Assembly (NCBI GenBank): GCA_020354025.1
Contig: CP070638.1
Span: 2,840,578 to 2,904,577 of the forward strand
DNA: 64,000 nucleotides
Direction of reading: 5' to 3'
DNA from: Fidelibacterota bacterium
GTDB taxonomy: Bacteria; Fidelibacterota; Marinisomatia; SCGC-AAA003-L08; TS1B11
The notes under the pieces are model-generated. The model was not told the DNA's origin. It saw nothing but the letters and a program-made list of their open reading frames with translations, and made no database searches. Below, piece after piece: positions 7,842 through 53,062 of this stretch; position 1 is the first letter of the stretch, and every line of letters starts with the position of its first letter. Both the position numbers and the translations under genes were made by a program.

Positions 7842-7873
7842 CTCACACTTTGATTAATGAGGTCCCGCCCAAG

Positions 7874-8932: not shown

Positions 8933-8965
8933 TAATTCTCCAATCCAGATGAGGAGGTGCTGGGC

Positions 8966-9913: not shown

Positions 9914-9946
9914 TCGCCCGACCAGTGCCAGCCCCCCTAATAATAT

Positions 9947-11254: not shown

Positions 11255-11319
11255 GGTAGTACGTCAGGTATGCCTGGTAGAACATCAAGTACAAACACTT
11301 AAGTAGAAGCGAGACACCG

Positions 11320-27694: not shown

Positions 27695-27753
27695 CGGCAA
27701 AGCCAGGTGTTTTTCATCGTGAACGATCGTCTGATAACCACAAGGAGAGCAAA

Positions 27754-31083: not shown

Positions 31084-34083
31084 ATGTTTAATTTTCGAGG
31101 CGCTCGCTTTTTCCTGATTTCGTTTATCAGCCTGAGCACATGCCTGGGGCAAGAAACCATCTGGCGACCCGTAGACCCAGGGGGAATGGGCTGGCTGATG
31201 TTTCCTTCTATCCATCCCACAACGGGGCATTTATATTTTTCCTCTGACATGAGTCTGTCCTTGATGAGAAGTACCGACCGGGCCGAGACCTGGGAGCCTA
31301 TCGCCAATCCCATTCCAGGTACTGCATTCTATGTAGCAGGTTCCCCCAGCGAACCGGGCACACTCTACATGAATCAGCTGGGCGAGACGCCCAAGGCCTC
31401 CGGCATCTGGAAGAGCATCGATAACGGCGATACCTGGGTGCAGCTCTATTGCAGCGATGAGTTCGGCATCAGTCGCAGCCAGTCGGGGGCAGTCGATCCG
31501 GATAACAGCGAGGTCATATACTGGACCGTGGCTGATTTCGGGGTCCATCGTTCAGTTGACGGGGGCCATTCGTGGCAGGACGTGAGCCGTGGCCTACCGC
31601 TGGAAGAGCTGGCGCACCCGGTCAAACACTGCCACACCCTTGAGATTGATCACAACAGCCCGCCGGATCATCGACGGATCTACTATCCCACCAGCCAGGG
31701 TCTGTACCGGATGGAGGAACCGGATGGTGAGTGGCGGCCGGTTCCCGGTCTGCCGGAGGAGGTCTGCAGTGACGTGGAAATTTGCGACGGCGGTGTCATT
31801 TACGCTGCCTTTCCCGGCCTGGGTCTTTACCGCAGCCGGGATGATGCGCGGACCTGGGCCAAGCTTGAGAACGGGCTGGACGGTAAGACACCGTTCCAGG
31901 TAGAGGCTACCAGCAGCCGGCCCGATATCGTCTATATCGCCGCCGTCAGGGACGAGGGCATCTATGGCAGCCGGGACGGGGGTGAGTCATTCGAGCTTCT
32001 GACCCACCGGCGGTTCAATGCCAAGAATAACTGGAAGATGAACTACCGGCAGCACGAGGCCGTATCCGGCCAGATCATGTTCGTTGATCCCAACGATCCT
32101 AATACCCTGATCCTCGATTACAACAAGAAGACCAGCGACGGCGGCCGGACCTGGCAGCACTACGGGCTGAAGGAAGTCCGGCGCGACCGCTATATCGGTA
32201 CCGGCATGACCCTGCTGACCGACTACCGGGTAGTGTTCGACCCAAACCGGCCGCGCATCGTCTGGATGGGATTCTCCGACACCGGGCTGATGCTCTCTGA
32301 GGATGGTGGTGAAAGCATCATCAACCTGATCTCGTTCCATCGAGGGGAGGTGAATCAGGCCGCCTACTGGCGAAATAAGCTGGTGCATACCTCCGGCTCC
32401 TGCGTGTCCATGACGGTGGATCCCGATCTATCCACTACCATCTACGCCTCCATCAACGGCAAGAATGCGAACAACCGGGCGGCGGTCGGCGGGGCCATTA
32501 TCAAGTCAGTGGACGGCGGCTGGAACTGGACTCCAATCTACGAAGAGCATGGGCTGGACGACGGCATCGTCCGTTCGATAGTCATTGATCCTTCCTCCCC
32601 GGTCCATGCCCGAACTGTCTATGCGGCCAGCTACGGCAACGGTGTGTATAAGAGTATCAATGACGGCCGCAGCTTCAAGCGAATCACTCCCCTGAGGATG
32701 TTCAAGGGCAACACCCGGCTGATGTGGCTCGAGATGGCGCCTTCTGACCCGCAGACGCTCTATCTGGCAGTAGGAGGCACGGATGGATTGCGGCCTATCT
32801 ATATCGGGCCGGACGCCTACCCGGCTCTGAAACCCGGCCAGCACGGGGGGGTTTTCAAGACCACCGACGGCGGCCGCTCCTGGGACAAGCTCAACAGCAC
32901 CCGCGAAATTCCCAGCGTGCAGGATATCGCCGTGCATCCTTCGAATGCGGATATAGTCTACGTGGCAGCCTGTCATGAGGATTACCTGGTTCCGGAGGAT
33001 GCGGGGCACCCGGAATGGAAGGAGGGGGGTGTTTATCGGTCCCTGGACGGCGGCCAGAACTGGGAGTTGGTGTTTGATCCACCCGAGGACGACCTACGAG
33101 GCCGGGGAGAAGTGGAAGGTGTATGCATCAACCCGGTGGCCCCGGAGATCATATATGCAGCCGTCAAGCGCTATGGAATCTATCGCACCTTCGATGGCGG
33201 CGACACCTGGGAAACGGTGGGTCACACTTCCATGGAGCGCATGCAGAGGCGATATCATTCCATCGATATCGATCCGCATGATCCCTCCGAAGTCTGGCTG
33301 GCGCACTTCGGGAATTCCTTCTCCAAAGGTACCGATTATAAAGCCCGGGAGTACTTGCTGGAAAAGTTTAAGGGCGCCAATTTCCTGCGCAATCCCGGAT
33401 TCGAGGAGTTGGGCGAGTCCGGCCGACCGCTGCACTGGAAAGTGGAACAGCCCCCCGCTCCGCGGGGAGAAAAACCCGTGTTCTCGATCAGCTCAACCCA
33501 GGCAAGTGGCGGCAAATACTCCGCCCGATTTCACCTCACCCAGGCTTACCCTGATGCGCCTACCCGTATCCCGGCCCGGCGGGAGCAGCTCCACCTGGAA
33601 AAAGCCGGCAAAATCCCGGTGGATGAAGGGTGGCAAGCCCGGCTCGACCAGAGGCCGGCGGGAGAGACCAACACCTGGATATATCAGAAGATCGATCCCT
33701 ATTTCACCACGTTGATGCGGGGAAAGCGGGTAGTCGTAGAAATGGATGTGTTTATCGTGGAGCGGAACCTGCCCACGCACTGGAGTCGCGGTTCGGAAGC
33801 CGGGGAGATACCCCGCGACCCACCCCAGGTTTACCTGACAGAAGTCAGGGACTACAACGTACACTGGCTGGTGGCAGAGACTTCGCTGGAGGACCTGGAG
33901 CCGGCATTCAATATCCCTGCATCGGAAATGAAGGGTAAGTGGTATCGTTGCAGCGCGAGCGGGACTGTAACCGAGGATGCACTCTGGCTGCGGGTGACCG
34001 TGACCGGGGCAGGCGAAATTTCGGGTCCGATGAACCTTTACGTGGATAACGTGAGCCTCAGCCTGGCTGAGCGAAAGGATTGA
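31084..34083 (+). CDS. Secreted Asp-box (BNR/sortilin-type) beta-propeller protein with C-terminal CBM-like domain
   Basis: This 999-residue protein has a short signal peptide (ending near LGQ). Residues about 25-730 hold at least seven Asp-box motifs of the S-x-D-x-G-x-T/S-W kind, for example SIDNGDTW, SVDGGHSW, SRDGGESF, TTDGGRSW, SLDGGQNW and TFDGGDTW. They are arranged as in VPS10/sortilin or GH74-like double propellers. Residues about 760-995 look like a CBM4/9-type jelly roll: FLRNPGFEELGESGRPLHW, then SGGKYSARFHL and LYVDNVSLSL. The protein may bind or cut a glycan. GH74 xyloglucanases share the fold, but I cannot identify catalytic aspartates with confidence. It follows DUF5107-TPR by 75 bases and precedes a thioredoxin-like lipoprotein. 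Confidence 0.82.
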   Translation: MFNFRGARFFLISFISLSTCLGQETIWRPVDPGGMGWLMFPSIHPTTGHLYFSSDMSLSLMRSTDRAETWEPIANPIPGTAFYVAGSPSEPGTLYMNQLGETPKASGIWKSIDNGDTWVQLYCSDEFGISRSQSGAVDPDNSEVIYWTVADFGVHRSVDGGHSWQDVSRGLPLEELAHPVKHCHTLEIDHNSPPDHRRIYYPTSQGLYRMEEPDGEWRPVPGLPEEVCSDVEICDGGVIYAAFPGLGLYRSRDDARTWAKLENGLDGKTPFQVEATSSRPDIVYIAAVRDEGIYGSRDGGESFELLTHRRFNAKNNWKMNYRQHEAVSGQIMFVDPNDPNTLILDYNKKTSDGGRTWQHYGLKEVRRDRYIGTGMTLLTDYRVVFDPNRPRIVWMGFSDTGLMLSEDGGESIINLISFHRGEVNQAAYWRNKLVHTSGSCVSMTVDPDLSTTIYASINGKNANNRAAVGGAIIKSVDGGWNWTPIYEEHGLDDGIVRSIVIDPSSPVHARTVYAASYGNGVYKSINDGRSFKRITPLRMFKGNTRLMWLEMAPSDPQTLYLAVGGTDGLRPIYIGPDAYPALKPGQHGGVFKTTDGGRSWDKLNSTREIPSVQDIAVHPSNADIVYVAACHEDYLVPEDAGHPEWKEGGVYRSLDGGQNWELVFDPPEDDLRGRGEVEGVCINPVAPEIIYAAVKRYGIYRTFDGGDTWETVGHTSMERMQRRYHSIDIDPHDPSEVWLAHFGNSFSKGTDYKAREYLLEKFKGANFLRNPGFEELGESGRPLHWKVEQPPAPRGEKPVFSISSTQASGGKYSARFHLTQAYPDAPTRIPARREQLHLEKAGKIPVDEGWQARLDQRPAGETNTWIYQKIDPYFTTLMRGKRVVVEMDVFIVERNLPTHWSRGSEAGEIPRDPPQVYLTEVRDYNVHWLVAETSLEDLEPAFNIPASEMKGKWYRCSASGTVTEDALWLRVTVTGAGEISGPMNLYVDNVSLSLAERKD

Positions 34084-34103: not shown

Positions 34104-34598
34104 ATGGACCTGAGAGGGCGCATATGGAAGGGCAAACGGTCGGTCCCGGCAGGGCTGGCCTTAACAGTGACCGGTCTCTGCCTGATCTGCTGTGCCAAGC
34201 AGGCCTCTTTCCAGGGTCAGCATTTTCCCCGGCTGGCGTTGAAGGAAGGCCGCGGCACGATTCTACTCTTCCTCGTCGAGGATCTGCAGTACTATTACCC
34301 GGAGACCGGGGAAATCAGCGGGGCGGAGAACCTCGATTATCTGATAAACCGGTTGAAGATGGACCTCGGCCGCTTGTCAGCCGAGTATCCCGATATGCGC
34401 ATTCTAGCCGTGGATGTCAACCAGGACCGCACTGCGGCGATCGATTTCAGAGTATACCAGCAGATACCGACGATAATCCTCATTGACCGAGCAGGATATG
34501 AAGTCCGGCGCTGGCTCCCGGACGACTTCCGACGCGGCGGCTGGACCATCGGCGAGATAGAAAAACTGCTGGAACCAGACACCAAACCGGAGCCATGA
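34104..34598 (+). CDS. Thioredoxin-like lipoprotein without a CxxC site
   Basis: This 164-residue protein has a signal with a possible lipobox cysteine (LICCAKQA). The remainder has a thioredoxin-like order: a strand (GTILLFLVED), a helix (NLDYLINRLKMDLGRLSAEY), a strand (DMRILAVDVNQD), then QIPTIILIDRAGYEVRRW, in which the cis-proline loop IPT is kept. The expected CxxC after the first strand is absent (VEDLQYYYP), so it cannot be a simple disulfide oxidoreductase. Its last four bases overlap the start of the alginate-lyase-like gene (ATGA), so translation is probably coupled. It may be a chaperone-like or binding partner for one of the neighbouring exported enzymes. Confidence 0.68.
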   Translation: MDLRGRIWKGKRSVPAGLALTVTGLCLICCAKQASFQGQHFPRLALKEGRGTILLFLVEDLQYYYPETGEISGAENLDYLINRLKMDLGRLSAEYPDMRILAVDVNQDRTAAIDFRVYQQIPTIILIDRAGYEVRRWLPDDFRRGGWTIGEIEKLLEPDTKPEP

Positions 34599-36004
34599 TG
34601 TTATCAGCCATTGGGAGGACTCGCAGGCGGATCATTGGATTGCTGATCGCCGCGATATGCTGCGGGCCTGTCTCCGCACAGATCGGATTATGGACCTCCG
34701 CGGCCGAACTGGTGGACAAGCCCATGTCCGGCCTGCCGTGGGAGAGCGTAAAGGCCGCCGCCGATGCGGCCGATCCAGGAATGGCCTTCGTATCCGATCA
34801 GAACAATAACAACAACGCACAGATCCTGGCGGCGGCCATTGTCTATGCCCGCTCCGGCGATACAACCTACCAGACCAAGGTTACCGCGGCCTGCGAAAAG
34901 CTGGTCAGCGCGGGCTACCCCGCCCTGGCTCCAGGCATATCCGAGGAGGATAACCGCACCCTGGCCTGGGCCCGCGAAACCGGCGCCTACGCCCTGGCTG
35001 CCGATCTGGTCGGATACCGGACGCCCGAATTTGAGACGTGGCTGCGCAGGATGGCCGAAGAATATATCGCCTACGATGAGCGGACTCTGCTGCATATGTT
35101 TCACGTACGCCCAAACAACTGGGGCACCCACGCGTTTGGATCTCTTTGCGCCATCTACGCCTATCTGCAGGATACAACCAGTCTGGGCGAGTTGCGTGAT
35201 TACTGGATTCAGGCAGTTGTGGGCCCCAAACCCGATGAACTGGAATACGGGGATGATCTGTCCTGGCATGCCGATCCATCCAATTTGCGCCTTATCAATC
35301 CCAAGGGTGCTGTGAAGCAGGGGTTGAATATTGACGGTATCACACCGGATGACATGCGGCGGAACGGTTCGTTCAGCAACCCGCCGCCCACTTCCTCGAC
35401 TACCTATCACTGGGGGGCACTGCAAGGCCAGGTTTCGGGGGGGCGTATACTCGAACGAATGGGAATGCCGATCTGGGACGTGGCCGACAGTGCCCTGTAC
35501 CGCGCCGGCTACGCGCTGCAGGTCCGGTGGGAGAATAGTTACGGCGGCTGGAAGGCTGAGGGGGACGACCTGTGGCTGCTGCCGTTCTTCGATTCTGTCT
35601 ACGGTACCCACTGGTCGGAGGGCCAGCCGGAGAGGGTGTGGAAGCATGGGAAGAATGCAGGATGGCCGTACGTGGTATGGGACGGTACTATCAGCTCCAG
35701 CGAGGAACAGGGTAGTTTCAACCCCGGTATTTACGAACTATTACAGAATTATCCCAATCCCTTCAACCCCGTCACACGAATCAGTTTAAGCATCGCTGAA
35801 ACCAGTCCGGTGCACCTGGCGGTTTATGATCTGGTGGGCAGGGAGGTTTCAACTCTCCTTGATGGTGTTGAGGAAGCAGGTGAACATATCCTGGTCTGGG
35901 AAGCAGTGAACCGGGAGGGGACTCAGCTGCCGAGCGGCATTTATCTGTGTCGCCTGTTAGCTGGCTATTACCAGAAGACTTTGAAGATGACGGTCTTGCG
36001 CTGA
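34595..36004 (+). CDS. Alginate-lyase-like (alpha/alpha) toroid protein with T9SS sorting domain
   Basis: This 469-residue protein has a signal peptide (VSAQ near residue 29) and a helical toroid resembling PF05426 alginate lyases. Visible features are the NTLAWARETGAYALAADL-like helix (here DNRTLAWARETG), HVRPNNWGTH with Asn174-Asn175-Trp176-Gly177-Thr178-His179, and YHWGALQGQVSGGR. In AlgL-type enzymes the equivalent segment is an NNH.YW motif, so the active site may differ. Residues about 385-469 are a T9SS type A tail with NYPNPFNP and SGIYLCRLLAG. A lyase that leaves an unsaturated uronic acid would feed the GH88 enzyme encoded 8 kb upstream. The ATG overlaps the stop of the thioredoxin-like gene. 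The substrate (alginate or another uronan) is inferred. Confidence 0.82.
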   Translation: MMLSAIGRTRRRIIGLLIAAICCGPVSAQIGLWTSAAELVDKPMSGLPWESVKAAADAADPGMAFVSDQNNNNNAQILAAAIVYARSGDTTYQTKVTAACEKLVSAGYPALAPGISEEDNRTLAWARETGAYALAADLVGYRTPEFETWLRRMAEEYIAYDERTLLHMFHVRPNNWGTHAFGSLCAIYAYLQDTTSLGELRDYWIQAVVGPKPDELEYGDDLSWHADPSNLRLINPKGAVKQGLNIDGITPDDMRRNGSFSNPPPTSSTTYHWGALQGQVSGGRILERMGMPIWDVADSALYRAGYALQVRWENSYGGWKAEGDDLWLLPFFDSVYGTHWSEGQPERVWKHGKNAGWPYVVWDGTISSSEEQGSFNPGIYELLQNYPNPFNPVTRISLSIAETSPVHLAVYDLVGREVSTLLDGVEEAGEHILVWEAVNREGTQLPSGIYLCRLLAGYYQKTLKMTVLR

Positions 36005-36145: not shown

Positions 36146-37228
36146 ATGGAGCCAAAAGGAATTCTACCGGTCGAGGTCGTCTTCCATCCCAACTGGTGGA
36201 ACAGGAATTGTGGTATTCGTTTTGACAGGGACTATTTCTTCAATCCCGAAGTCAGACTGGAGTACAATATACTGATGCGCCGATATTTATACGAGAGGTT
36301 CCCCGATCTAGGGCTTGGCGAGGGAGACGCCCAGCCCCGTCCGATGGTTGGAGGCACTATGCTGGCGGCTGGATTCCTCATTTCCGGCATACTGGGATGC
36401 GAGATCAAATACTTCGTGGATGCTTCGCCTGAAGTCCTGCCCGCAAATTTGACCGCTACCCAGATAGAGCAGCTCGCGCCACAAAATATCATGGATGCCC
36501 CGATCATGCAGGAGCTCTCGCGGCTCATATCCGAGCTGGAGCAAAGGTTCGGCTATGTCGAAGGAGACATCAACTGGGAAGGGGTGCAAAATGTGGCCTT
36601 GAATCTTCGGGGTCAGCAGCTGTTCCTGGATTACTATCAGAATCCGGAGCTGGCGAAAAAGTTGCTCGATACCATCGCCACAGTAATTGCCCAGTTCCTA
36701 GACTTCATGATCTCAAAAACTGGGACCACCTCCATTTCGGTCAACCGGATCGTCGGGCGCGTTGATCCACGGATTAACCTGCACTCGAACTGCTCGGTGA
36801 CTATGATATCCGCAGATCACTACCGGGAGTATCTGCTGCCTCATGACCAGATGCTTGCTAATCGTTTTCAGCCGTACGGCATCCACCACTGCGGCGAAGA
36901 TATGCACCGGTTACGGTATGAGTATGCCAAGATCAATGAGGCCACGTTCTTCGATGTCGGGTGGGGATCGGATATCAAGCTCTGCCGGGAAGCTCTTCCG
37001 GAGAAGTTCCTGAGCCTGAGATTGAGTCCGGTGCGGATGCTGTCGGAAACGGCGGATGAGATCGAGAATGACATCGTCAGTCTACTCATGAACGCCGGTC
37101 CGCTAGATAAGACCGGCCTGTGCTGTGTGAATATGGATTACGGCACGCCGGACGAAAACATTGAGCGGATATTTCAGGTCGCTGAGCGGTATCGGAATGA
37201 ATATGCCCAAGAGCAAAAGAACAGGTAA
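36146..37228 (+). CDS. URO-D superfamily protein with zinc-type methyltransferase motif (MtaA/CmuA-like)
   Basis: This 360-residue cytoplasmic protein has no signal peptide. It belongs to the uroporphyrinogen decarboxylase superfamily (PF01208). The key signature is His247-x-Cys249 in GIHHCGED, followed by Cys326-Cys327 in GLCCVNMDYGTP. H-x-C plus a later Cys is the zinc-binding set of MtaA/MtbA/CmuA-type corrinoid:thiol methyltransferases, and it is absent from true heme-pathway URO-D. A methyl-transfer role, such as demethylation of an O-methyl sugar, is therefore more likely than decarboxylation. No corrinoid protein is encoded in the window, which is a gap in this idea. GAGGGG before the ATG supports the start. 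DUF2264 follows after six bases, so they are co-translated. Confidence 0.85.
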   Translation: MEPKGILPVEVVFHPNWWNRNCGIRFDRDYFFNPEVRLEYNILMRRYLYERFPDLGLGEGDAQPRPMVGGTMLAAGFLISGILGCEIKYFVDASPEVLPANLTATQIEQLAPQNIMDAPIMQELSRLISELEQRFGYVEGDINWEGVQNVALNLRGQQLFLDYYQNPELAKKLLDTIATVIAQFLDFMISKTGTTSISVNRIVGRVDPRINLHSNCSVTMISADHYREYLLPHDQMLANRFQPYGIHHCGEDMHRLRYEYAKINEATFFDVGWGSDIKLCREALPEKFLSLRLSPVRMLSETADEIENDIVSLLMNAGPLDKTGLCCVNMDYGTPDENIERIFQVAERYRNEYAQEQKNR

Positions 37229-37234
37229 ACCACC

Positions 37235-39247
37235 ATGGAAGTGATATTTGAAACCGGGGAAGATCGCCAGTTATCCCCGCGCACCGGCTGGACCCGCAAG
37301 CATTGGCTGGAACTGGCCGATAAGATGATCGCCGCCATCCAACCGTATCTAACGCCCGGCAAGGGCGGCCTGGCTCTTCCTAACCCGACGCGGTGGATGG
37401 ACGAGTATCTGCCAGAGCCGGAGAAAATGCGGACCTTTTACTGGATGGAAGGTTATACCCGCACCCGTCTGCTGCTGGCCTGTTGGATGATGGGTGCCGG
37501 CCGGACAACTCTCACGTCAAACGGCCGATCCGTTGATATTCGGGACCAGTTCGTTGAGGGATTGCTATCGGCGTCGGACCCCAAGCACCCGGAATACATC
37601 GGCGATCGGTATGGGAACAACCAGTGGATCGCGGAGACCTCCAGTGTGGCGCTAGCCATCTATATCGCTCGCGAGTTGGTATGGGACAGTATGTCGCCCG
37701 GGGAGCGGGAGCAGGTATCAGACTGGCTGCGCCTGGCGACGGGGCATAAGATAGCACATAATAACTGGTACCTGTTCGTGGCCAATACCCAATGCGTCCT
37801 AAAAGCGCTGGGGGAAAAGTATGATCAGGATGAACTAGATCGCTATCTACAGCAGGTGAAAAATTTCTATATTGGTGGCGGCTGGTTCATGGACGGAGAC
37901 CATGAGAGAGGGTATTCGATAGACCAGTATAACGCGTGGGGATTCCACCATTTTCTGCCAGCGTACGTCTACATGAACGTATTGGACCCGACCTGGAAGG
38001 ACTGGATCGTCGAGCGTCTGAAGGAGTACGTAAGCAGCTATAAACACTTCTTCGGAGGTAACGGCGCTTTCCCTATGTGGGGGCGCTCCTGGGCGTACCG
38101 ACCGGCTGTGGTCGCACCGTTCAACTGGGCGGAGATACTGGGCGTATCACCACTCCAACCCGGTGAATCCCGTCGGCTGGTATCGGGCGTGATGAAATAC
38201 TATGTCGAGAACGGCTACTTCCAGGCCGACATGACGCCTACCATGGGCTACGCAGGTGAAAACCTGAAACTTATCGAGCCCTATAGCCAGTATGGATCTC
38301 CCTACTGGGGCAGCGCGGCCTTTCTAAACCTGCTGCTACCCGACTCCCACCCCTTCTGGCGGGATCGGGAGGAACCCCTGACCGTCGAGCAGGAAAGTTA
38401 TTGTGTCCCGGAGCCGGACATCGGATTGCTGGTAACAGGCAACCACGAGACCGGGGAGGTGCAGATCATCAACCACCGCTCATGGCATCAGCGGGAGGGT
38501 GCTAAAACCAGGTACGCAAAGAAATACACCAACTTTTCCTATTCCTCTCATTTCGGTATCGACTTGCGACGGGACGATAACGGATATAACTGTGATAATA
38601 TGTTCTCGGTCTCCCCCGACGGTAAAAAGTACTCACAGCGGATCATCCCCTTCTATATCGGCCTGGACAAGAACTATGGTGCCAGCTATCATTACCCACT
38701 GGCAGGCTTCCCTTTCGGCGCGCCGGAAGATGCCAAAGCATTTTCAATCGATTTTAAAACCGAAGCCGAAGAGGACCAATCAGTCAAAATAACCACCCAG
38801 CTCTATCTGAAGGAATTCTGCCAGGTCCGGGTGCACACACTGGAAACGAAACGTAAGCTCGCCGCAGTAAGGGAAGGGGGCTTCGCCCTCAATTATTTCG
38901 GGAAATTGGCTGAGGCTGTGATTGATGAAGATTCAGTAGCGTTCTGGAATGGTGAACGGGGATCCTTCATTAAGAACCTGTTCGGCTACGCCGGTCCCTC
39001 CGGGCTCGAAGTACTCCTGGATAATACGGAGAATCATCACACGTTGGGAGGGAAGTCGGTTACTCCCACGCTAATCGGCGGGGAGCTTAAGCCCGGCCGG
39101 CATGTCTTCGTCAGTCTCTCCGGGACCTGGTTCGGAGGGAAAAATGAGGTCACCGAGAAGCTCGGTCTGATCAGAAAAATTAACGTCTCGCAGGATCAAG
39201 TGAAATTATGGTTCAGCGAGGGGACCGATTATACTTTCAAAATCTAG
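37235..39247 (+). CDS. DUF2264 domain protein (first copy)
   Basis: This 670-residue protein has no signal peptide and should be cytoplasmic. Family features include GWTRKHWLELADKM at the N-terminus, WMEGYTRTRLLLACWMMGA, HNNWYLFVANTQCVLKALG, FYIGGGWFMDGDHERGYSID and YNAWGFHHFLPAYVY. The N-terminal two thirds look like an (alpha/alpha)6 barrel and the rest a beta-sandwich, a layout shared with polysaccharide lyases and GH88/105-like enzymes. DUF2264 has no assigned reaction that I know of. Its place between a methyltransferase-like gene and a sodium:solute symporter suggests that it works on the imported sugar in the cytoplasm. A related second copy lies at 41597-43549. It starts six bases after the URO-D-like gene. 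Confidence 0.9.
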   Translation: MEVIFETGEDRQLSPRTGWTRKHWLELADKMIAAIQPYLTPGKGGLALPNPTRWMDEYLPEPEKMRTFYWMEGYTRTRLLLACWMMGAGRTTLTSNGRSVDIRDQFVEGLLSASDPKHPEYIGDRYGNNQWIAETSSVALAIYIARELVWDSMSPGEREQVSDWLRLATGHKIAHNNWYLFVANTQCVLKALGEKYDQDELDRYLQQVKNFYIGGGWFMDGDHERGYSIDQYNAWGFHHFLPAYVYMNVLDPTWKDWIVERLKEYVSSYKHFFGGNGAFPMWGRSWAYRPAVVAPFNWAEILGVSPLQPGESRRLVSGVMKYYVENGYFQADMTPTMGYAGENLKLIEPYSQYGSPYWGSAAFLNLLLPDSHPFWRDREEPLTVEQESYCVPEPDIGLLVTGNHETGEVQIINHRSWHQREGAKTRYAKKYTNFSYSSHFGIDLRRDDNGYNCDNMFSVSPDGKKYSQRIIPFYIGLDKNYGASYHYPLAGFPFGAPEDAKAFSIDFKTEAEEDQSVKITTQLYLKEFCQVRVHTLETKRKLAAVREGGFALNYFGKLAEAVIDEDSVAFWNGERGSFIKNLFGYAGPSGLEVLLDNTENHHTLGGKSVTPTLIGGELKPGRHVFVSLSGTWFGGKNEVTEKLGLIRKINVSQDQVKLWFSEGTDYTFKI

Positions 39248-39271
39248 TCTATAAGAACAAGGAAAATATCC

Positions 39272-40984
39272 GTGCCTAAATTATGGTTTATTGATTATGC
39301 GGTCATGGTATGCCACCTAATGCTTATGGTAGGAGTAGGCTTCTTCTTTTACCGTTATGTAAAAAGCGCTACCGATTTCTTCAAGAGCAGTAACCGTCTG
39401 CCATGGTGGGTGGCGGGCTTGTCCTCATTCATGAGCGGTTTCAGTGCCTGGACTTTCACCGGCGGTGCGGGCAAGATATATGAAAGCGGTATTTCCGGTG
39501 CTGCTATTCTGTGGTCCAGTTCGGTTGCTGTGATGCTCTCGTACTTCATATTCGCCAAACGCTGGCGTCGGAGTCGGATTACGACGGTGATGCAGTTTAT
39601 GAGTGAGCGCTACAACAAGTTCACCCATCAGTTCTACTCCTGGGTGTATGTGATCATGAAATGGTTCATTGTCGGACTACAGCTGCTCTCAACGGCAATC
39701 TTTATTTCTGTGGCTATCGGCATAGATGTGCGGATCGTTGTCGTAGTGGTAGGTCTGACTATGTTAACCTACTCGGTCCTTTCTGGCCTATGGGGCGTGT
39801 CCACGAATGACACGCTACAATTCATCATCGTCGCTTCGGTGACGATGGTAGCTACACCACTCAGTCTCAGTGCTGTGGGGGGGATCGGAGAGTTCATCAC
39901 AAGAGTCCCAGAGAGGTTTTTCTCTCTAACCAATGGGAATGTCGATCTGTTTTTTATTATCGGTTGGATGTTGCTGCAGTTTTATGGTAATAATTCGAAT
40001 GCCACGGTTCAACGCTATTTCAGCGTAAGGACCGAACGTGATGCGCGACGGGTAGCTCTGACAGGATCAGTCCTGTTTTTCGTCGGAGTTTCAGTGTGGA
40101 TGATCCCATCTATGGCAGCCCGGATTCTTTATCCCGATCTGAGTGGAATAGCCCTGGGACTCAAGAATCCTTCGGAAGCGGCCTACGTCGTTATGTGCCT
40201 GAGGGTCCTGCCGCATGGTCTGATAGGCATCCTACTGGCGGCGATATTTGCCGCCACCATGTCATCACTGGACTCCAGTTATAATGTCATGGCGGGAGTA
40301 CTGGTAAAGGATATCTACCAGCGGTTGATAAAACCAGACGCCACCCCGAAGCAGCTGCTCTTTACCAGTCGGATGGCTATTCTGCTAATTGGTTTCTCGG
40401 CTACCGCGTTGGCGGTGTTTCTCACATCCCACACCGGTGGCGTTTTCGGTGTCATGAAGGATATTTCTCAGGTAATCACCGTCCCGGTGGCCACCGCTTT
40501 GCTGCTGGGTCTGGTAGTGCGCAAGACCCCTCCCTGGACGGCTGTGTTCTCGTTCGCGATCACTTTTGTGGTGGCTTATACAACTCGCTACGTCTATGAC
40601 ATGCACCTGGGCTATCAGGCCTGTGCGGTGGTGGGGACTTCCATAACCAGCTTTACGGTAATGCGGATTTTCTGGAACCGGGCACCGCAGGTCGACCGGG
40701 AGCGCATCGAGGGATTTTTCCAGAAGCTGGATACACCCATCGATGCTGACAAGGAGCTGGCAGAGCCGGTTGCGGCGGATGCCGTGTCCATGCTGCAGGT
40801 GGTAGGCGTGCTGCTTTTTGCAGTAGGCCTGATCATCGTCGTACCAATCGTTTTCCTCAAGGAGCTGCCCTCAATCCTGATCGCCCTGAGTGAGGGTTTG
40901 TTCCTGATGGGGTTGGGTTCATATATGTTCCTAAGGGGACGGCGCAAGAAGATGATGGACGTGCAAGCCCTGGCTGAAGCCTAG
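39272..40984 (+). CDS. Sodium:solute symporter (SSS family)
   Basis: This 570-residue inner-membrane protein has about 13 or 14 hydrophobic helices. It has the SSS features KSATDFFKSSNRLPWWVAG and SGFSAWTFTGGAGKIYE early on, and IFAATMSSLDSSYNVMAG in the centre. It should bring a sugar, uronate or amino acid into the cell with sodium. The flanking DUF2264 genes suggest a mono- or disaccharide as cargo. The start is GTG at 39272, with AAGGAAAA about eight bases upstream; the first residues are PKLWFIDYAVM. It lies 24 bases after the first DUF2264 gene and 43 bases before the DUF3795 gene. Confidence 0.93.
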   Translation: MPKLWFIDYAVMVCHLMLMVGVGFFFYRYVKSATDFFKSSNRLPWWVAGLSSFMSGFSAWTFTGGAGKIYESGISGAAILWSSSVAVMLSYFIFAKRWRRSRITTVMQFMSERYNKFTHQFYSWVYVIMKWFIVGLQLLSTAIFISVAIGIDVRIVVVVVGLTMLTYSVLSGLWGVSTNDTLQFIIVASVTMVATPLSLSAVGGIGEFITRVPERFFSLTNGNVDLFFIIGWMLLQFYGNNSNATVQRYFSVRTERDARRVALTGSVLFFVGVSVWMIPSMAARILYPDLSGIALGLKNPSEAAYVVMCLRVLPHGLIGILLAAIFAATMSSLDSSYNVMAGVLVKDIYQRLIKPDATPKQLLFTSRMAILLIGFSATALAVFLTSHTGGVFGVMKDISQVITVPVATALLLGLVVRKTPPWTAVFSFAITFVVAYTTRYVYDMHLGYQACAVVGTSITSFTVMRIFWNRAPQVDRERIEGFFQKLDTPIDADKELAEPVAADAVSMLQVVGVLLFAVGLIIVVPIVFLKELPSILIALSEGLFLMGLGSYMFLRGRRKKMMDVQALAEA

Positions 40985-41027
40985 CAGAAACGCTCTTGCG
41001 GGCGTCAGGGGATATCCTGGAAAATAT

Positions 41028-41549
41028 ATGAGGAATATCATGAAGGATAGACAGAGCCGGTGTGAATTCATCAAAACCGGTGTAACCGTCGGGACCGGAC
41101 TCGTATTAGGCAGCATGAATTTTTCATGCTATACAAAATTGATGAAGACAAAATCACAGGCTAGTGAAAGTGAAAGTCCAGTGTCGGAAGGAATCGACTT
41201 CAGCAAGCAGGCTTACTGCAGCTGGAACTGCGATGAAAAAGAATGTCAGATCTTACGGGCTACCCTGAGCAACGACCTGGAGGCTAAAAAGAAAATCGCG
41301 CGACGCTGGGCTGAGAGATTCGGCAGGGAATTCACGTCCGAGGAAATATTTTGCTACGGCTGCAAGGTGGAAGATAAGCCCATTGCATATGCTCTGGAGG
41401 TCTGCACAGTCAGGAAGTGCGCGAGCAAGCGGGATGTAATCACCTGCGCCCATTGTGACGAATTGCCGACTTGTGACAATGAACTATGGACTGAATGGCC
41501 TGGACTGAAGAAAAAAGCTGAAGAGCTCAGAAACAAATTGCAGGGGTAA
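41028..41549 (+). CDS. DUF3795 cysteine-rich protein with a Tat-like lipoprotein leader
   Basis: This 173-residue protein has a leader that looks like a twin-arginine signal with one arginine replaced: SRCEFIK (residues 10-16) where SRRxFLK is usual. A hydrophobic stretch ends in MNFSC, a possible lipobox at Cys34. The mature part contains many cysteines in pairs (CSWNC, CYGC, CTVRKC, CAHC, CDN), the DUF3795 pattern, which is likely to bind zinc or another metal. The function is unknown. An ATG at 41040 with better Shine-Dalgarno context is an alternative start that keeps the leader. It stands between the symporter and the second DUF2264 gene, so it probably belongs to that transport and processing unit. 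Confidence 0.82.
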   Translation: MRNIMKDRQSRCEFIKTGVTVGTGLVLGSMNFSCYTKLMKTKSQASESESPVSEGIDFSKQAYCSWNCDEKECQILRATLSNDLEAKKKIARRWAERFGREFTSEEIFCYGCKVEDKPIAYALEVCTVRKCASKRDVITCAHCDELPTCDNELWTEWPGLKKKAEELRNKLQG

Positions 41550-41596
41550 TGGGTGATGGAGTGCATAACTCTGAGCGGGGGGCGATAAAGATCTGA

Positions 41597-43549
41597 ATGA
41601 GCAAAAAGACGGAACATATTACACTGTCGCCACTTACCGGGTGGACAATTCGGGACTGGTGCGATGTTTCCAGCCGGATTTTGGCGAGCGCCTACCGCCA
41701 CTTAAGTCCCGGCCGAGCGTTGGTGAATTTTAAGGGTCCCCGCCCTAGCATCTATGGCCCTCTGTCCGATGGGGTGGAAGGTTTCGCGCGGACCTTCCTG
41801 CTAATCGGTTTCCGGCTTGGCGGCCGCCGGGATGGTAGGCTGGAGACCGGCGATGAAACGGTGGATTGGGCTAAAATATATCGTGCGGGTTTGCTGAACG
41901 GGACCGCAGGGGATCATCCGGAATACTGGGGGGAGATCTCCGGTAAACACCAGTACATGGTTGAGGCTGCTTCTATCTCGATTGCCCTCTATTTCTCACG
42001 CCACCTAATATGGGATTTGTATACCAAAGAGGAGCAGGATCAGATTGGACGCTGGCTGCGGCACCTGCTGCAGTACCCCTTCGAAGATAAGAACTGGGTA
42101 CTATTCGGAGTGATAATCAACTCCTTCCTGAAAGCCGCCGAGCAGGAATACTACCAGGACCAAATCGACTTCTATCTGGACCGCTACGATTCGTACTATG
42201 AGGCTGAGGGCTGGTACCGTGATGGAGTCGGGCCACAGTACGATCTATACAATCCTTGGGCGCTGCATTTTTACGCCCATCTGTGGAGCGAAATGGATCC
42301 CGATATCCTCCGCCCGGAACTGGTGGAGCTATTCCAGGAGCGAAGCCGTCTCTTCCTGGAAAAATTCAGTCACTATTTCAGCAGTACTGCCTCGCACCCC
42401 GCATTCGGGCGCTCCCTAATCTATCGCTGCGCACTCGTGGCGGCAGCTCTCGTCGGCACCTGGAAAGGTCATACGCCATTATCCCCGGGATTAACTCGCC
42501 GGCTTTGCAGCCAGAGTCTGAAGTACTTTGTGGAAAATGGTCTTTTCGGTGATGATGGAACCGTGCCTCTAGGTTGGACGCGCGATTTCGTACCCATGGC
42601 GGAGAAATACAGCGGACCGGCTTCACCATTGTGGCTGAATAAGGTATTCTCGGCTTTCCTAATGCAGGAGGATCATTCCTTCTGGACATCCGTTGAGGAG
42701 CCGCTGCCGGTCGAGAAAGGGGACTACTGCCTAGGTCACAAAATCCCCGGATTCCTGGTTCAGGGGCATCAGACAACCGGTCATGTGCAGCTGATTAATC
42801 AAGGCAGCGATTCATACGTTAATGCATCCACTGACTGGAAAACTCCCGCCTCGGATTACCTGTATCTTAAATACGCCTATTCGAGCCATCTCTTCAACGA
42901 CATCGGTCCTACCGAAGAAGGACTGGTCTGCGGCAACATGATCAGCCTTTACGAAGAGCAGCGCGGATTCAGTCACCGGGAGCGGGTATACCCTCTGCAC
43001 GTATCCGACAGGGCAGCGGTGTCATATCACTATCCGTTCGGCGAGCAGTTCGGTATGAAGCGAGACTCCCGGATCGAGACCGCCATCATCATGAAAGGTG
43101 ATCACCAGATCCGCATCCACTGGGTGGTCAGTCCCAATAGGCCGCTGGCGTACGAAGGAGGATACTCTCTGGCCTACGATGCCGGGGTGCCGCTGATTTC
43201 GAGTGGAGAGGATTGGATCAGCGTTCAGACCGAGAACGCCCAGTGCTGTGTCCGGAAACTGCTAGGGTACGGCGAAGTCGGGACGAGCGATGCGATCGAT
43301 GTCAATCCACTGGGCAAGCGTTCGACCCTACCCTACGTGAAGACCGGCGTTCCAATCTCCGCCCAGGGAATACTGGCCTGTGAAGTGATTGCGCGCCCCG
43401 CACATTTCAATGTTGAGACCGAGCTTTCCCTGATAGAAAGCTGCGCCCTCATGGGGCGCGTAGTAATGCTCCACTTCTCGGACGGCGAAGCAGTAACCGT
43501 GAAGCTGGGCCCTGTGGAGGAGGGCGAGGAGAAGGTCGAGTGGCAGTGA
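41597..43549 (+). CDS. DUF2264 domain protein (second copy)
   Basis: This is a 650-residue cytoplasmic protein without a signal peptide. It parallels the first copy through most of its length: GWTIRDWCDVSSRIL near the start, GFARTFLLIGFRLGG, DKNWVLFGVIINSFLKAAEQ, YEAEGWYRDGVGPQYDLYN and WALHFYAHLW, then a C-terminal beta-rich part. The two copies are clearly homologous but well diverged, so they probably act on different linkages or substrates and are not a recent duplication. It lies 47 bases after the DUF3795 gene and about 140 bases before a clan-A glycosidase gene. The function is inferred only from context. Confidence 0.9.
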   Translation: MSKKTEHITLSPLTGWTIRDWCDVSSRILASAYRHLSPGRALVNFKGPRPSIYGPLSDGVEGFARTFLLIGFRLGGRRDGRLETGDETVDWAKIYRAGLLNGTAGDHPEYWGEISGKHQYMVEAASISIALYFSRHLIWDLYTKEEQDQIGRWLRHLLQYPFEDKNWVLFGVIINSFLKAAEQEYYQDQIDFYLDRYDSYYEAEGWYRDGVGPQYDLYNPWALHFYAHLWSEMDPDILRPELVELFQERSRLFLEKFSHYFSSTASHPAFGRSLIYRCALVAAALVGTWKGHTPLSPGLTRRLCSQSLKYFVENGLFGDDGTVPLGWTRDFVPMAEKYSGPASPLWLNKVFSAFLMQEDHSFWTSVEEPLPVEKGDYCLGHKIPGFLVQGHQTTGHVQLINQGSDSYVNASTDWKTPASDYLYLKYAYSSHLFNDIGPTEEGLVCGNMISLYEEQRGFSHRERVYPLHVSDRAAVSYHYPFGEQFGMKRDSRIETAIIMKGDHQIRIHWVVSPNRPLAYEGGYSLAYDAGVPLISSGEDWISVQTENAQCCVRKLLGYGEVGTSDAIDVNPLGKRSTLPYVKTGVPISAQGILACEVIARPAHFNVETELSLIESCALMGRVVMLHFSDGEAVTVKLGPVEEGEEKVEWQ

Positions 43550-43687
43550 AGCTGACACCGCCGGGATTTACGCTTAATAGATTCGAATAGAAATGGAGTG
43601 ATGATGGATCTGACTACAGAGCAGCGTTCTCTGCATGCCATCGGAGACGAGTATCACCACAACCGATATAACCGCGGAGGTCATACG

Positions 43688-45739
43688 ATGAGCACAATTA
43701 TGCGTTCGAAGCCGATACTTCTGATACTGCTAACGGCAGTAACTCTCTGTCTGGCAAGAGACGGCCGCAACCTGGTTCCCAATCCGAGTTTCGAGCAAGC
43801 GACACTCTCCATACCGCCAATAAACTTCCAGCCCGCTCGTCCCGCCACCGAGGACGATCCGCCGGAGTACAAGGTCCTGATACCGGATGGCTGGAAGATC
43901 GTCAGCGCCTATTCCCGGGGTTATATGCCAGCAGAGCAGGGCTGGGGCGTGGCTGATAAGGCACACAGCGGTAAACGCAGCATCTTTCTATCTGATGCAC
44001 CGGCCTTTCCCGCCTGGTATTCGGAGGATTTTGCCATAGAGCCTGACAAGGCTTATCTAGCGGAGGCCTTCATCGAGCCCGTCAGTATGCGCTACCACGA
44101 TTATGTCAGGATCATATTTTCTATCCTGGACGCTGAGGGTAAATGTCTCGGATACGAGCAGATCGTATCGGCGCGGGTGGAGACCAGGAATATCCGGTCT
44201 TCGGATTACGGAGTTATGGAATGGCGTCACAAACAGGTCTATATCCGCCCTCGCGAGGGGCAGGCCGGAATGCGGATAATTATCCGGCTGGCTGGCAGTG
44301 GGACCGCCCACATCGATGATATTTCCGTCAAAGCTCTAAGCCGCAAGGAGGCTGCCGCGCTGGAACCACCCTTCCGGCAGGAAACGCCGGTATTGGCAAC
44401 CGTGAAGCAACAGCCGAGGTTGGAAGAAACCGGGTTCTATCGGGTGGAGGAGGTTGACGGCGTATGGTGGCTGGTCGATCCAGAAGGCCGCCTGACCTGG
44501 AGTATCGGCGTGCAGAGCATGGGAAACATATTGTGGGAAAACCCACCGCTTAGCAAGTATATCGAAGAAAAGTACGGAGGGGACCAGTCTCAATATCTGG
44601 AGGATCAGATCCCGCGGCTTCGGAACTGGAACTTCACCACTTCGGGTTCCTGGTCAGGACCAGCCTTCTGGAGTCTGAACACCCGGCTGACTGCGCGTAG
44701 GGAGGAACCCTTTCCCTCTTTCCATTTCATCGGCTTTACCACGGTTGGTGACCAGGAATACAGTGTGCGCAACCGCGAGGGGATTGTGAACGACTTCGGC
44801 GAGCACGCCATGGCTGATCCGTTCAATCCCCAGTGGCGCGCCCGAGCTGAGGATAAGGTACGGGAGATAACCTCGCTATATGAGAATATCCCCTGGCTGG
44901 TGGGCTATTTCGTAGACAATGAAATCAATATGAGGAACCTAACCAGCTATCTGCATTCCACCTACTGCCGGCAGGAACTGGTCAAGTGGCTGGAGGAGCG
45001 CTATGAGGGAAAAATCGGCGAACTCAATAAGAAATGGTCGACCCGCAAGAAGAAGTACAGGTATGCCGATTTTGACCAGATTGGGGCGGATATTCCAGAC
45101 CGGGACCCTTCGCCAAGTGTCGAGAGGGACCTGCGCGCTTTCATCCGTCACGTCATGAAGACCTATATCGATTTCACTGTGGATGTCATCCGTAAATATG
45201 ATCCCGACCATCTTATCGTCAGCAACCGTTTTGCTCTGGGTACCAGGACCAGGGCAGTGGAAGAGGTCGACGATTTCATTGACCTCTTTGGCCGGTATGA
45301 TATAGTGTGTACCAACTTATATGCACAATCAGGCGGATCGTACACACCGGACCAGATGGCACTGCTGGATTATCTGCATGAAAAAACGGGACGGCCGCTG
45401 CTGATCGGTGAGTTCTCCTTCCACGCTAACGAATCGAACATCCCCCTAGACCGCTGGGGGGAAAAGATCGTAGCGACGATGAAGGAACGGGGTGAAGCAT
45501 ATGAGCGTACGATGATGTCATGGTCGCATCTGCCCTACATGGTAGGGGCCCATTTTTATAAGTGGTGCAATGGCTACGGACCTGTCGGGCGATACCGTGG
45601 ACGTAACGCAGGCATCGTGAACGACCAGAACCAGCCTTACCAGCCCTTTGTTGATATGGTAACCGAGACCAATTACCGGGTGCTTCACGCCCGGCGTCCG
45701 GCTGGCGGCAGCGTGAAGGATTTTAAATATCTCAAGTAG
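43688..45739 (+). CDS. Secreted clan GH-A glycosidase with N-terminal CBM-like domain, beta-agarase-like
   Basis: This is an exported enzyme of about 683 residues. I place the start at ATG 43688, where GGAGG is seven bases upstream and a clean signal peptide follows (ILLILLTAVTLCLARDG). Upstream in-frame codons would put a charged stretch before the leader. Residues about 22-215 resemble a CBM4/9 jelly roll (NLVPNPSFEQ, AHSGKRSIFLSD, HIDDISVKAL). Then comes a TIM barrel with VDPEGRLTWSIGVQSMG and RLRNWNFTTSGSW, a style seen in beta-agarases and GH42/GH50-like proteins. Glu412 in VDNEINM is the likely acid/base and Glu575 in IGEFSF the likely nucleophile. The exact family and substrate are uncertain; a beta-galactan or similar is possible. 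Confidence 0.83.
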   Translation: MSTIMRSKPILLILLTAVTLCLARDGRNLVPNPSFEQATLSIPPINFQPARPATEDDPPEYKVLIPDGWKIVSAYSRGYMPAEQGWGVADKAHSGKRSIFLSDAPAFPAWYSEDFAIEPDKAYLAEAFIEPVSMRYHDYVRIIFSILDAEGKCLGYEQIVSARVETRNIRSSDYGVMEWRHKQVYIRPREGQAGMRIIIRLAGSGTAHIDDISVKALSRKEAAALEPPFRQETPVLATVKQQPRLEETGFYRVEEVDGVWWLVDPEGRLTWSIGVQSMGNILWENPPLSKYIEEKYGGDQSQYLEDQIPRLRNWNFTTSGSWSGPAFWSLNTRLTARREEPFPSFHFIGFTTVGDQEYSVRNREGIVNDFGEHAMADPFNPQWRARAEDKVREITSLYENIPWLVGYFVDNEINMRNLTSYLHSTYCRQELVKWLEERYEGKIGELNKKWSTRKKKYRYADFDQIGADIPDRDPSPSVERDLRAFIRHVMKTYIDFTVDVIRKYDPDHLIVSNRFALGTRTRAVEEVDDFIDLFGRYDIVCTNLYAQSGGSYTPDQMALLDYLHEKTGRPLLIGEFSFHANESNIPLDRWGEKIVATMKERGEAYERTMMSWSHLPYMVGAHFYKWCNGYGPVGRYRGRNAGIVNDQNQPYQPFVDMVTETNYRVLHARRPAGGSVKDFKYLK

Positions 45740-45831
45740 AACGAAGCTCGGCAAAAGAGGTTTTGCTGTTGCCTTGAACTAAACCTAATCTCGAGAATGG
45801 AAGTATTACACTAAAAATACAAGGAATAAGA

Positions 45832-47577
45832 ATGGCGGAAGCAAAAGAAAAATGGGTGGATGATCTTCTAGGGAAGATGAACCTGGAGCAGAAGGTCGGC
45901 CAGATGATGGTGTTCGGTTTCGCCGGACCGATCATCACGCCGGATACAGTTGAATTAATCCAGAAATATCATGTGGGTGGACTGCGGATCTGCCTGAAGT
46001 TCCGAACCCAGACCCTGCTCCACGATCTGAAACCCGGTAGCAAGCCTAATGAAAACATACTACGGTCGCTGGAATATCCGCGGGGACAGAATCGCGACTT
46101 CGCTGACCCCAAACAGTGCGTGGCCTGCACACCGGAGCAGTATGCCGCCGTGCTGAACAGGCTGCGGGACTACGCCCTGGACCGGGATCTGAGCATTCCC
46201 CTGCACTTCACCATCGACCAGGAGGGCAACGGCTCGGACGATCTGATCAACGGCCAGCGGCTGTTCCCCCATCCCATGGGCCTGGCGGCTTCGGGCGAAC
46301 CCAAACTGGCCTATCGAGTAGCGATGGCTATCGGCAAGCAGGCTCGGGCCCTGGGCGCAAACATGATCCATTCACCGGTTCTGGACGTAAACACCAACCC
46401 ACAAAATCCGGAGATCGGCACCCGAGCTTATTCCGACAAGGTTGATGTGGTCATCAAGTACGCACTTCAGACTCTGCGGGGTTTTAAGGAAACCGGTCTG
46501 ATAGCCACCGGGAAGCACTTTCCAGGCCGCGGCGAATCGGTCGCCGACGCTCACTGGGACCTACCCTCGGTCAATCTCGATCTACAAACCCTTCAGAACG
46601 AGCACATCGCGCCCTATCGAGAGCTGATCCCGGCTGGCCTACCGGCGGTCATGACCGCGCACTGCTGCTATCCCGCGTTGGGCGTTACCGATATCCCCAG
46701 CTCCACATCTGAAAGAGTGATTCGGGGCTTGCTGCGGGAAGAGTTGGGATTTACCGGCGTTGTCACCACGGATAACATGATGATGGGAGGTATTCTGCAG
46801 CGGCTGGAGATCAGGGAGGCGATCGTGCGGACCATCGAGGCGGGTAACGACCTGATACTGTACCGGGATGAGAGCCCCCAGCGAATCAGGATCCTTGAGA
46901 CCGTACTCGATGCGGTCAGGAGCGGGAGGATCCCCGAATCCCAGATCGATGAGTCGGTCATCCGCATTCTGGGTCTGCGATGGGACATGGGTCTGGCCGA
47001 GAACGGCGGCAAGGTCGATCCGGCTAGTGCGGCCCTGCCGATCAATGATCCTTTTGTTATCGAGACCGCGCAAGAGGCGGCAGATAAGTCCATCCTGCTG
47101 CTACGGGACGACGCCGGCCTGCTACCACTCAAGCCTAAACAGAACATCCTGTTGGTGGAGCAGGTGTTCTCCAGTCATCAGATGGCTAATAACATGTCGT
47201 GTCATCCTGGCATGTTGTGGGAGGAGATGTGCCGCGAGTCATCGAATGTGGGATCGGTAGAGATACCCCTCACTCCCTCCGAGCACGACCGAGAGCGGAT
47301 TATGCGGCGGCTCAGTGAAGCGGAGGTAGTCGTTACCACCAATTATTATTACCACAAGGCAGCGGCCGTAATGACTGATTTAGTTCGGGATATCCACCAG
47401 AGCGGCAAGCCAGTGATTGTGGTCTCCAATAATCCCTTCGAGCGGGCCGCCCCCGTCGATTTCCCGACGGTTCTGGTCGTATTCACCGCTGGCGGCCGCG
47501 AGAACCTGAGGGCAGCGGTGCAAGTACTGTACGGGAAGCTGAAGCCCACGGCCAAGGTCCCCGCCCGTCTCAGCTGA
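45832..47577 (+). CDS. Glycoside hydrolase family 3, NagZ-like beta-N-acetylhexosaminidase type
   Basis: This 581-residue enzyme has no signal peptide, so it is probably cytoplasmic. The GH3 barrel begins with LLGKMNLEQKVGQMMVFGF. GKHFPGRGESVADAHWDLP includes Lys228-His229 and the Asp239-Ala-His241 pair, the mobile catalytic dyad that marks NagZ-type GH3 enzymes. Asp314 in TTDNMMMGG is the predicted nucleophile. A second alpha/beta domain follows from about residue 400 (ILLLRDDAGLLPLKPKQNI). Substrates should therefore carry an N-acetylhexosamine or another beta-sugar cleaved by this dyad mechanism. AAGGAA lies seven bases before the ATG. It closes the 36-47 kb module and suggests that oligosaccharides are finished inside the cell. 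Confidence 0.9.
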   Translation: MAEAKEKWVDDLLGKMNLEQKVGQMMVFGFAGPIITPDTVELIQKYHVGGLRICLKFRTQTLLHDLKPGSKPNENILRSLEYPRGQNRDFADPKQCVACTPEQYAAVLNRLRDYALDRDLSIPLHFTIDQEGNGSDDLINGQRLFPHPMGLAASGEPKLAYRVAMAIGKQARALGANMIHSPVLDVNTNPQNPEIGTRAYSDKVDVVIKYALQTLRGFKETGLIATGKHFPGRGESVADAHWDLPSVNLDLQTLQNEHIAPYRELIPAGLPAVMTAHCCYPALGVTDIPSSTSERVIRGLLREELGFTGVVTTDNMMMGGILQRLEIREAIVRTIEAGNDLILYRDESPQRIRILETVLDAVRSGRIPESQIDESVIRILGLRWDMGLAENGGKVDPASAALPINDPFVIETAQEAADKSILLLRDDAGLLPLKPKQNILLVEQVFSSHQMANNMSCHPGMLWEEMCRESSNVGSVEIPLTPSEHDRERIMRRLSEAEVVVTTNYYYHKAAAVMTDLVRDIHQSGKPVIVVSNNPFERAAPVDFPTVLVVFTAGGRENLRAAVQVLYGKLKPTAKVPARLS

Positions 47578-52987: not shown

Positions 52988-53062
52988 TTCATTGATGATG
53001 GATGATCAGGACTTTCAGTTATTGGTCTATGAGTACAAATGAGAAAACCAAGGGAGGGCAGT

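Follow-up and report, generated by a model that had tools for sequence, protein, structure and literature searches.

A conserved catabolic gene cluster around paired DUF2264 proteins, probable uronate dehydratases, in Candidatus Neomarinimicrobiota and KSB1 genomes

We describe a real, conserved and mobile catabolic cluster organised around DUF2264 proteins, found in a 64,000-nucleotide stretch of DNA (the window). The window belongs to a single-contig genome of 3.40 Mb that is 95% complete, and its named relatives are Candidatus Neomarinimicrobiota MAGs. With moderate confidence, we read the cluster as the cytosolic arm of a locus for polysaccharide utilisation whose target is a glycan containing uronate, and in which a pair of DUF2264 proteins (DUF2264a and DUF2264b) would dehydrate imported acidic oligosaccharides. 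The class of chemistry has been known since 2025, while no description of the gene combination, its methyltransferase-like partner or the missing next step was found in the literature searched.

Seven ORFs were confirmed on the + strand at 36146–47577, with intergenic gaps of 6, 24, 43, 47, 48 and 92 nt, in agreement with a sequence-only reading of this DNA that had described seven consecutive forward genes with small gaps. In order, they match the Pfam families URO-D, DUF2264, SSF, DUF3795, DUF2264, Glyco_hydro_42 (clan A) and Glyco_hydro_3, each above the curated cut-off. Compartments were assigned with a simple hydropathy check for leaders. The URO-D-like protein, DUF2264a, DUF2264b and GH3 lack a hydrophobic leader and the SSS protein is of membrane type, as had been read from the sequence, which also agrees with the earlier placement of DUF2264 and GH3 inside the cell. 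The clan-A glycosidase shows a signal-peptide-like leader when its start is set at ~43688 instead of 43598. The features of the locus, including those upstream of the seven genes, are as follows.

12619..15675, + strand: TonB-dependent receptor with a carboxypeptidase-regulatory-like N-terminus (Pfam; KSB1 orthologue 60%, order kept); upstream edge of the KSB1-shared unit
20810..22264, + strand: metallophosphoesterase-like lipoprotein (Pfam; KSB1 orthologue 58%)
22276..24990, + strand: exported GH2 with beta-mannosidase-like domains (Pfam; KSB1 orthologue 63%)
25038..26537, + strand: exported GH88-like protein with a T9SS C-terminal sorting domain, candidate extracellular unsaturated uronyl hydrolase (Pfam; KSB1 orthologue 57%)
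26633..27694, + strand: amidohydrolase-like lipoprotein (Pfam; KSB1 orthologue 55%)
27676..31008, + strand: DUF5107 and TPR lipoprotein (Pfam; orthologues in L014, L015 and KSB1)
31084..34083, + strand: exported BNR/sortilin-like beta-propeller protein (Pfam; 69–75% orthologues upstream in L014, L015 and KSB1)
34595..36004, + strand: exported alginate-lyase-like (alpha/alpha) protein with a T9SS tail, candidate surface lyase (Pfam Alginate_lyase below cut-off plus Por_Secre_tail; orthologues 61–71%)
36146..37228, + strand: URO-D/MtaA-fold protein, cytosolic, with conserved H247-x-C249...C326-C327 (Pfam, weak MtaA/CmuA match, fold search, residues, genome distribution)
37235..39247, + strand: DUF2264a, two-domain uronate dehydratase homologue (10/10 BcGDH active-site residues)
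39272..40984, + strand: sodium:solute symporter, SSS (Pfam and NCBIfam TIGR00813 above cut-off; KSB1 76%)
41028..41549, + strand: DUF3795 protein with a Tat-like leader, optional insert (Pfam)
41597..43549, + strand: DUF2264b, second two-domain dehydratase homologue (9/10 residues; 176 = Lys, 175 = Asp)
43598..45739, + strand: exported clan-A glycosidase whose closest solved relatives are GH50 beta-agarases (start likely ~43688; orthologues 72–76%)
45832..47577, + strand: cytosolic GH3 with a NagZ-type KHFPG...D-x-H dyad (orthologues 72–79%); downstream edge of the conserved unit

The gene order is conserved beyond chance, as it recurs in four other genomes, three congeneric Candidatus Neomarinimicrobiota MAGs and one MAG from another phylum, KSB1 (contig JAFGSB010000077.1). 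One conserved module had been proposed from the sequence, and its neighbourhood was found in these four genomes; the lack of conservation that had been named as speaking against the idea did not occur. The boundaries given for that module fared less well. In KSB1, collinearity continues upstream through the BNR, DUF5107/TPR, amidohydrolase, GH88-like, GH2 and metallophosphoesterase genes to the TonB receptor, so the conserved unit in the window genome spans approximately 12619–47577 and begins far upstream of the seven genes. It ends at GH3, since the GH78, isomerase, Nramp, GH31 and GH20 genes downstream are not common to the flanks examined. DUF3795 occurs only in the window genome and L015; the remaining complete copies, L017 and KSB1 among them, lack it, and it is therefore not a core gene. 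The order of the seven genes thus stood, while the membership of DUF3795 and the upstream limit did not.

Some variation was observed among the copies. The AlgL-like gene lies between GH2 and the GH88-like gene in KSB1 and before the URO-D-like gene in the window, and the shared genes of the KSB1 locus have a heparinase II/III-like gene and one more GH2 between them. One congener copy (G001) is split, probably a scaffolding artefact, because both breaks fall at runs of N. DUF2264 was found in 4 of 245 genomes of the Neomarinimicrobiota phylum, all of the window's genus; for the KSB1 phylum the count was 3 of 82. One of these three, G286, carries a minimal GH3-DUF2264-SSS cluster, and in G003 a ROK sugar kinase gene and another SSS gene lie after GH3.

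A comparison of sequence identities points to horizontal spread of the locus between Neomarinimicrobiota and KSB1. Identities of the window's proteins to those of its congeners and of KSB1, respectively, were 62–73% and 63% for the URO-D-like protein, 67–72% and 61% for DUF2264a, 85% and 76% for SSS, 67–74% and 67% for DUF2264b, 74–76% and 72% for the GH50-like protein, and 76–79% and 72% for GH3. Across the module, this amounts to 62–85% for congeners and 61–76% for KSB1, whereas RecA identity falls from 86–88% to 67%. Because module identity is nearly level while RecA drops steeply, horizontal transfer is favoured over shared descent. The GC content of the KSB1 contig pieces (42–45%) fits its own genome sample (45% around the KSB1 recA) and is unlike that of the window (53%), which disfavours mis-binning of this contig.

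By sequence, DUF2264a and DUF2264b are members of the DUF2264 (former GH154) uronate dehydratase family. The two proteins score 289 and 312 bits against PF10022 (cut-off 25), and both match the PDB sequences 9o4u/9nwf ("beta-D-glucuronic acid dehydratase") and 8oi4 (GH154), with E-values down to 1e-26 for DUF2264a and of 6e-13 (9o4u) and 1e-18 (8oi4) for DUF2264b. The statement in the sequence-only reading that DUF2264 has no assigned reaction is outdated, as a dehydratase reaction and crystal structures have been published (PMC12269599; 9o4u/9nwf). BcGDH of B. caccae converts terminal GlcA to its delta-4,5-unsaturated form, and ten residues were found to abolish activity when mutated (PMC12269599). 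The same 2025 paper reports that BT3677, the founding GH154 member, dehydrates methyl beta-glucuronide and that a second domain of it is predicted to lie close to the active site. It also disputes the hydrolase activities reported earlier for GH154 and proposes that the whole GH154/DUF2264 family (>6000 proteins) consists of dehydratases feeding GH88/GH105 (PMC12269599).

Identity of our DUF2264 copies to BcGDH is 22–25%. The active-site set (BcGDH numbering: E74, R78, N176, N177, W178, F181, Y229, R285, Y289 and Y354) is kept at all ten positions in DUF2264a and in the G286 and G284 proteins, both from the KSB1 phylum, and at nine of ten in DUF2264b. The exception is N to K at position 176, where the family member 8oi4 carries T; Asp-Lys takes the place of the Tyr-Asn of the BcGDH mobile active-site loop in all four copies having the region. 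These catalytic residues, common to the DUF2264 copies and a glucuronate dehydratase, bear out the earlier suggestion of an action on uronates. The AlphaFold model of DUF2264a (pLDDT 80, pTM 0.84) shows the lyase-like (alpha/alpha) barrel plus beta-sandwich that had been anticipated, and its best fold matches are 8oi4 (GH154) and 9o4u (BcGDH), with TM 0.71–0.75 by target length. From these likenesses we infer the dehydratase reaction of the window's own DUF2264 proteins; the substrate, and the role that each copy would play, are proposals as well.

In the mechanism that we propose, secreted AlgL-like, GH88-like, GH2 and GH50-like proteins would cut the glycan outside the cell, probably joined in KSB1 by the heparinase II/III-like protein and the additional GH2. 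Short acidic oligosaccharides would enter through the TonB receptor and then the Na+ symporter. In the cytosol, DUF2264a and DUF2264b would act as oligosaccharide uronate dehydratases on the terminal uronate. The tyrosine matching BcGDH Y229 would take the C5 proton and the one matching Y289 would protonate O4 as it leaves, with the arginine at the R285 position stabilising the carboxylate; the product would be a removable terminal uronate with delta-4,5 unsaturation. The NagZ-like GH3, of N-acetylhexosaminidase type, probably trims the adjoining sugar, and the freed uronate may enter the keto-deoxygluconate route. Counting for the dehydratase proposal are the PDB matches, the active-site residues, the DUF2264a fold, the BT3677 activity and the synteny, with further support from the heparinase II/III-like protein and GH2 in KSB1, the minimal cluster of G286, the GH3 dyad and the UxaC route. 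The identity to BcGDH of only 22–25% and the earlier, now disputed, GH154 hydrolase activities (PMC12269599) count against it.

The main difficulty for the proposal lies in the following step. An unsaturated uronyl hydrolase is needed in the same compartment, yet every GH88-type protein carries an export leader (three of three in the window genome and two of two in the KSB1 genome). This concerns the use of the pathway and not the family membership of the DUF2264 proteins. KduI, which normally takes over the released product, is missing from both the 95% complete window genome and the KSB1 MAG. With all GH88-type proteins exported and KduI absent, the step after dehydration has no enzyme named. 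Either uronyl cleavage is carried out by another cytosolic enzyme, by a DUF2264 copy or by GH3, or these DUF2264 proteins are hydrolases. In this last case, they would be exo-beta-glucuronidases or beta-galactosidases, the activities first ascribed to GH154, that differ in linkage between copies and deliver saturated glucuronate to UxaC. UxaC was found in all five genomes, and in the window genome it occurs outside the module with UxaE, KDPG aldolase and two SDRs beside it. That distribution, the window genome's lack of a cytosolic unsaturated uronyl hydrolase and of KduI, and two family members first reported as hydrolases (PMC12269599) speak for hydrolysis. However, BcGDH, for which contamination by LacZ had been noted, had no hydrolase activity once purified more cleanly, BT3677 has dehydratase activity, and a GH-like acid/base pair was not seen in the BcGDH site (PMC12269599), whose residues are the same in the DUF2264 proteins here; we consider hydrolysis unlikely.

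For the substrate, a uronate-hexosamine glycan is the candidate that fits best. The AgaS/PfkB/GatZ (GalNAc) operon at 7–12 kb was considered as proof of a GalNAc-specific substrate and rejected as such, because G003 and G286 lack GatZ and the operon is not conserved together with the module. The missing GatZ also counts against the dehydratase proposal as regards the sugar beside the uronate.

The D-x-H dyad is a mark of GH3 N-acetylhexosaminidases. It follows KHFPG in all five GH3 copies checked, with the motif KHFPGRGES(V/I)xDAH in the four module copies checked and KHFPGRGDSATDAH in G286; against NCBIfam NF003740, the window's GH3 scores 137 bits, below the cut-off of 207. The GH50-like protein matches solved beta-agarases over residues 320–697 (phmmer, 3.6e-26), but Pfam gives Glyco_hydro_42. 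Searched against the PDB, a profile of the AlgL-like protein matched nothing beyond FlgD-like tails and chance hits, so its assignment as a lyase rests on the sub-threshold Pfam match. No SusD family member was seen among the scanned neighbours; the TonB receptor at 12619 and T9SS-tailed proteins are present instead. Import by a sodium symporter, as suggested earlier, agrees with the membrane-type SSS protein, which is above cut-off for both Pfam and TIGR00813.

The URO-D-like protein is tied to the pathway by its distribution, since within its phylum a full-length close homologue (>60% identity) was found only in the four DUF2264 genomes. Its profile had no match among PDB sequences, and the relation was seen by fold instead, with the model (pLDDT 69) showing a URO-D/MtaA fold at TM ~0.63–0.68 to known structures. 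H247, C249 and C326/C327 are invariant in five orthologues, and the H-x-C plus distal Cys has a spacing that we take to be that of the zinc site of MtaA-type methyltransferases. The protein resembles the MtaA/CmuA methylcobamide methyltransferases (4ay7/4ay8) and uroporphyrinogen decarboxylase in fold and in the H-x-C...C motif, but shares 11–16% identity with them, falls below family cut-offs (24.7 bits against NCBIfam TIGR01463, MtaA/CmuA, far below 235.4) and has no corrinoid protein adjacent. Methyl removal by this protein had been suggested in the sequence-only reading. It might be a corrinoid-dependent O-demethylase of methylated uronates, served by a corrinoid protein in trans, with DUF2264 dehydrating the demethylated uronate. 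The fold, the weak MtaA/CmuA match, the invariant residues and the co-occurrence with DUF2264 in four genomes of the phylum, with no further close homologue, are in line with such a role, as are the stand-alone corrinoid proteins encoded elsewhere in the window genome. It is nonetheless a doubtful one, given the score of 24.7 against a cut-off of 235 and given that a corrinoid gene adjoins the module's URO-D-like gene in none of the copies, although two other loci of the window genome pair a URO-D-like methyltransferase directly with a corrinoid gene.

After the dehydratases, the fold matches of the DUF2264a model that come next are to polysaccharide lyases acting on uronates and to dermatan sulfate epimerase, and these extend over the full length, beta-sandwich included. 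It is quite unlikely, in our view, that the DUF2264 proteins are lyases or epimerases acting on internal uronates, in the manner of PL15/PL17 exo-alginate lyase, heparinase III or dermatan sulfate epimerase. The beta-sandwich half does give the full-length matches to the PL15/PL17/PL33/heparinase and dermatan sulfate epimerase folds, and the chemistry is the same (C5 proton removal with O4 as the leaving group), such that a glycosidic O4 would make an exo-lyase. These matches are weak, however (TM ~0.45–0.5, identity 9–13%), and the top fold and sequence matches are to dehydratase/GH154, with a complete active site in DUF2264a. Very improbable is a scheme of consecutive DUF2264 steps, in which DUF2264a would dehydrate the terminal uronate, DUF2264b, with its Asp-Lys in the loop, would hydrate and release the unsaturated uronate without GH88, and the URO-D-like protein would add an obligatory undescribed step. 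If true, this would amount to a cytosolic pathway for uronide cleavage, complete in itself and built on one fold.

Returning to the dehydratase reading, among the nearest known systems is BcGDH of Bacteroides caccae PUL25 (9o4u, 9nwf; PMC12269599), which shares the family, the catalytic-domain fold and ten or nine key residues. The window's copies differ from it at 22–25% identity, in a C-terminal beta-sandwich of ~280 residues, in the presence of two paralogues together, and in their linkage to SSS, URO-D-like and GH3 genes, and no GH88 partner is predicted to share their compartment. BT3677 of Bacteroides thetaiotaomicron is alike in its predicted second domain and in its dehydratase activity (PMC12269599). 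The ulvan oligosaccharide dehydratase P29_PDnc likewise dehydrates a saturated terminal uronate and thereby prepares it for the unsaturated uronyl hydrolase with which it is paired, GH105 (PMC8511951), but has no sequence relation to BcGDH (PMC12269599). Haloarchaeal GAG loci, as far as described in part of their published account (PMC13260240), have a GAG lyase gene next to GH154 and GH88 genes whose products are annotated as cytoplasmic, and one of these loci also has GH2; they differ in ABC transport and in the cytoplasmic GH88, and that part of the account mentions neither a URO-D-like protein nor SSS.

The cluster offers a natural test of the family-wide model of 2025, with paired cytosolic dehydratase homologues, intact sites, hydrolase partners that are all exported, and a KduI that can be missing. 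Either there is an undiscovered cytosolic uronyl hydrolase in these genomes, or the general GH154 to GH88/GH105 model is incomplete. With its strict link to a URO-D-like protein and its transfer as a whole between two uncultured phyla, the cluster lends itself to expression work as a compact target. Finally, a promoter scan found sites no commoner than in shuffles, while a terminator scan gave 17 against 12.7 in shuffles (sd 3.5), a slight excess.

The gene for a DUF5107 and TPR lipoprotein travels with the module in more than one phylum. In the KSB1 copy of the locus, carried on contig piece L053, extra genes are inserted between this gene and the BNR gene. The genes concerned are:

Window 27676-31008: DUF5107 and TPR lipoprotein
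L053 661-4595: heparinase II/III-like protein and GH2, the KSB1 extras

In the chromosome-labelled MAG CP070787.1, the module is found as two pieces 1.9 Mb apart, with breaks near position 14024 of one piece (L014) and 7782 of the other (L018). Both break points coincide exactly with runs of N, and the split is therefore likely a scaffolding error.

Further genes were observed around the module and at two other loci of the window's genome (G000, contig C1):

Window 7062-12180: operon of DeoR regulator, SIS (AgaS-like), PfkB kinase, GatZ/KbaZ aldolase subunit and EamA transporter
Window 53039-54319: exported (alpha/alpha) protein, matching C5-epimerase, GH127 and GH88 simultaneously, each weakly
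Window 56856-58742: 628-residue lipoprotein, flanked by GH31 and GH20
G000:C1:3205000-3223000 (L085): hexuronate operon with TRAP transporter genes, UxaE, UxaC, SDRs, KDPG aldolase and a Lar_N-domain protein
G000:C1:2310000-2320000 (L089): two URO-D-like genes and a corrinoid protein, with sulfatase-like flanks

The first operon resembles one for GalNAc/galactosamine catabolism; among the congeneric MAGs compared, GatZ was also present in G001 and G002 and was not found in G003. A Pfam search of the 628-residue lipoprotein returned zero matches. The TRAP transporter genes of the hexuronate operon were assigned by sequence, and this operon lacks KduI. At L089, where the sulfatase-like label of the flanking genes was a by-eye call, the arrangement may represent a glycan-associated corrinoid methyltransferase system.
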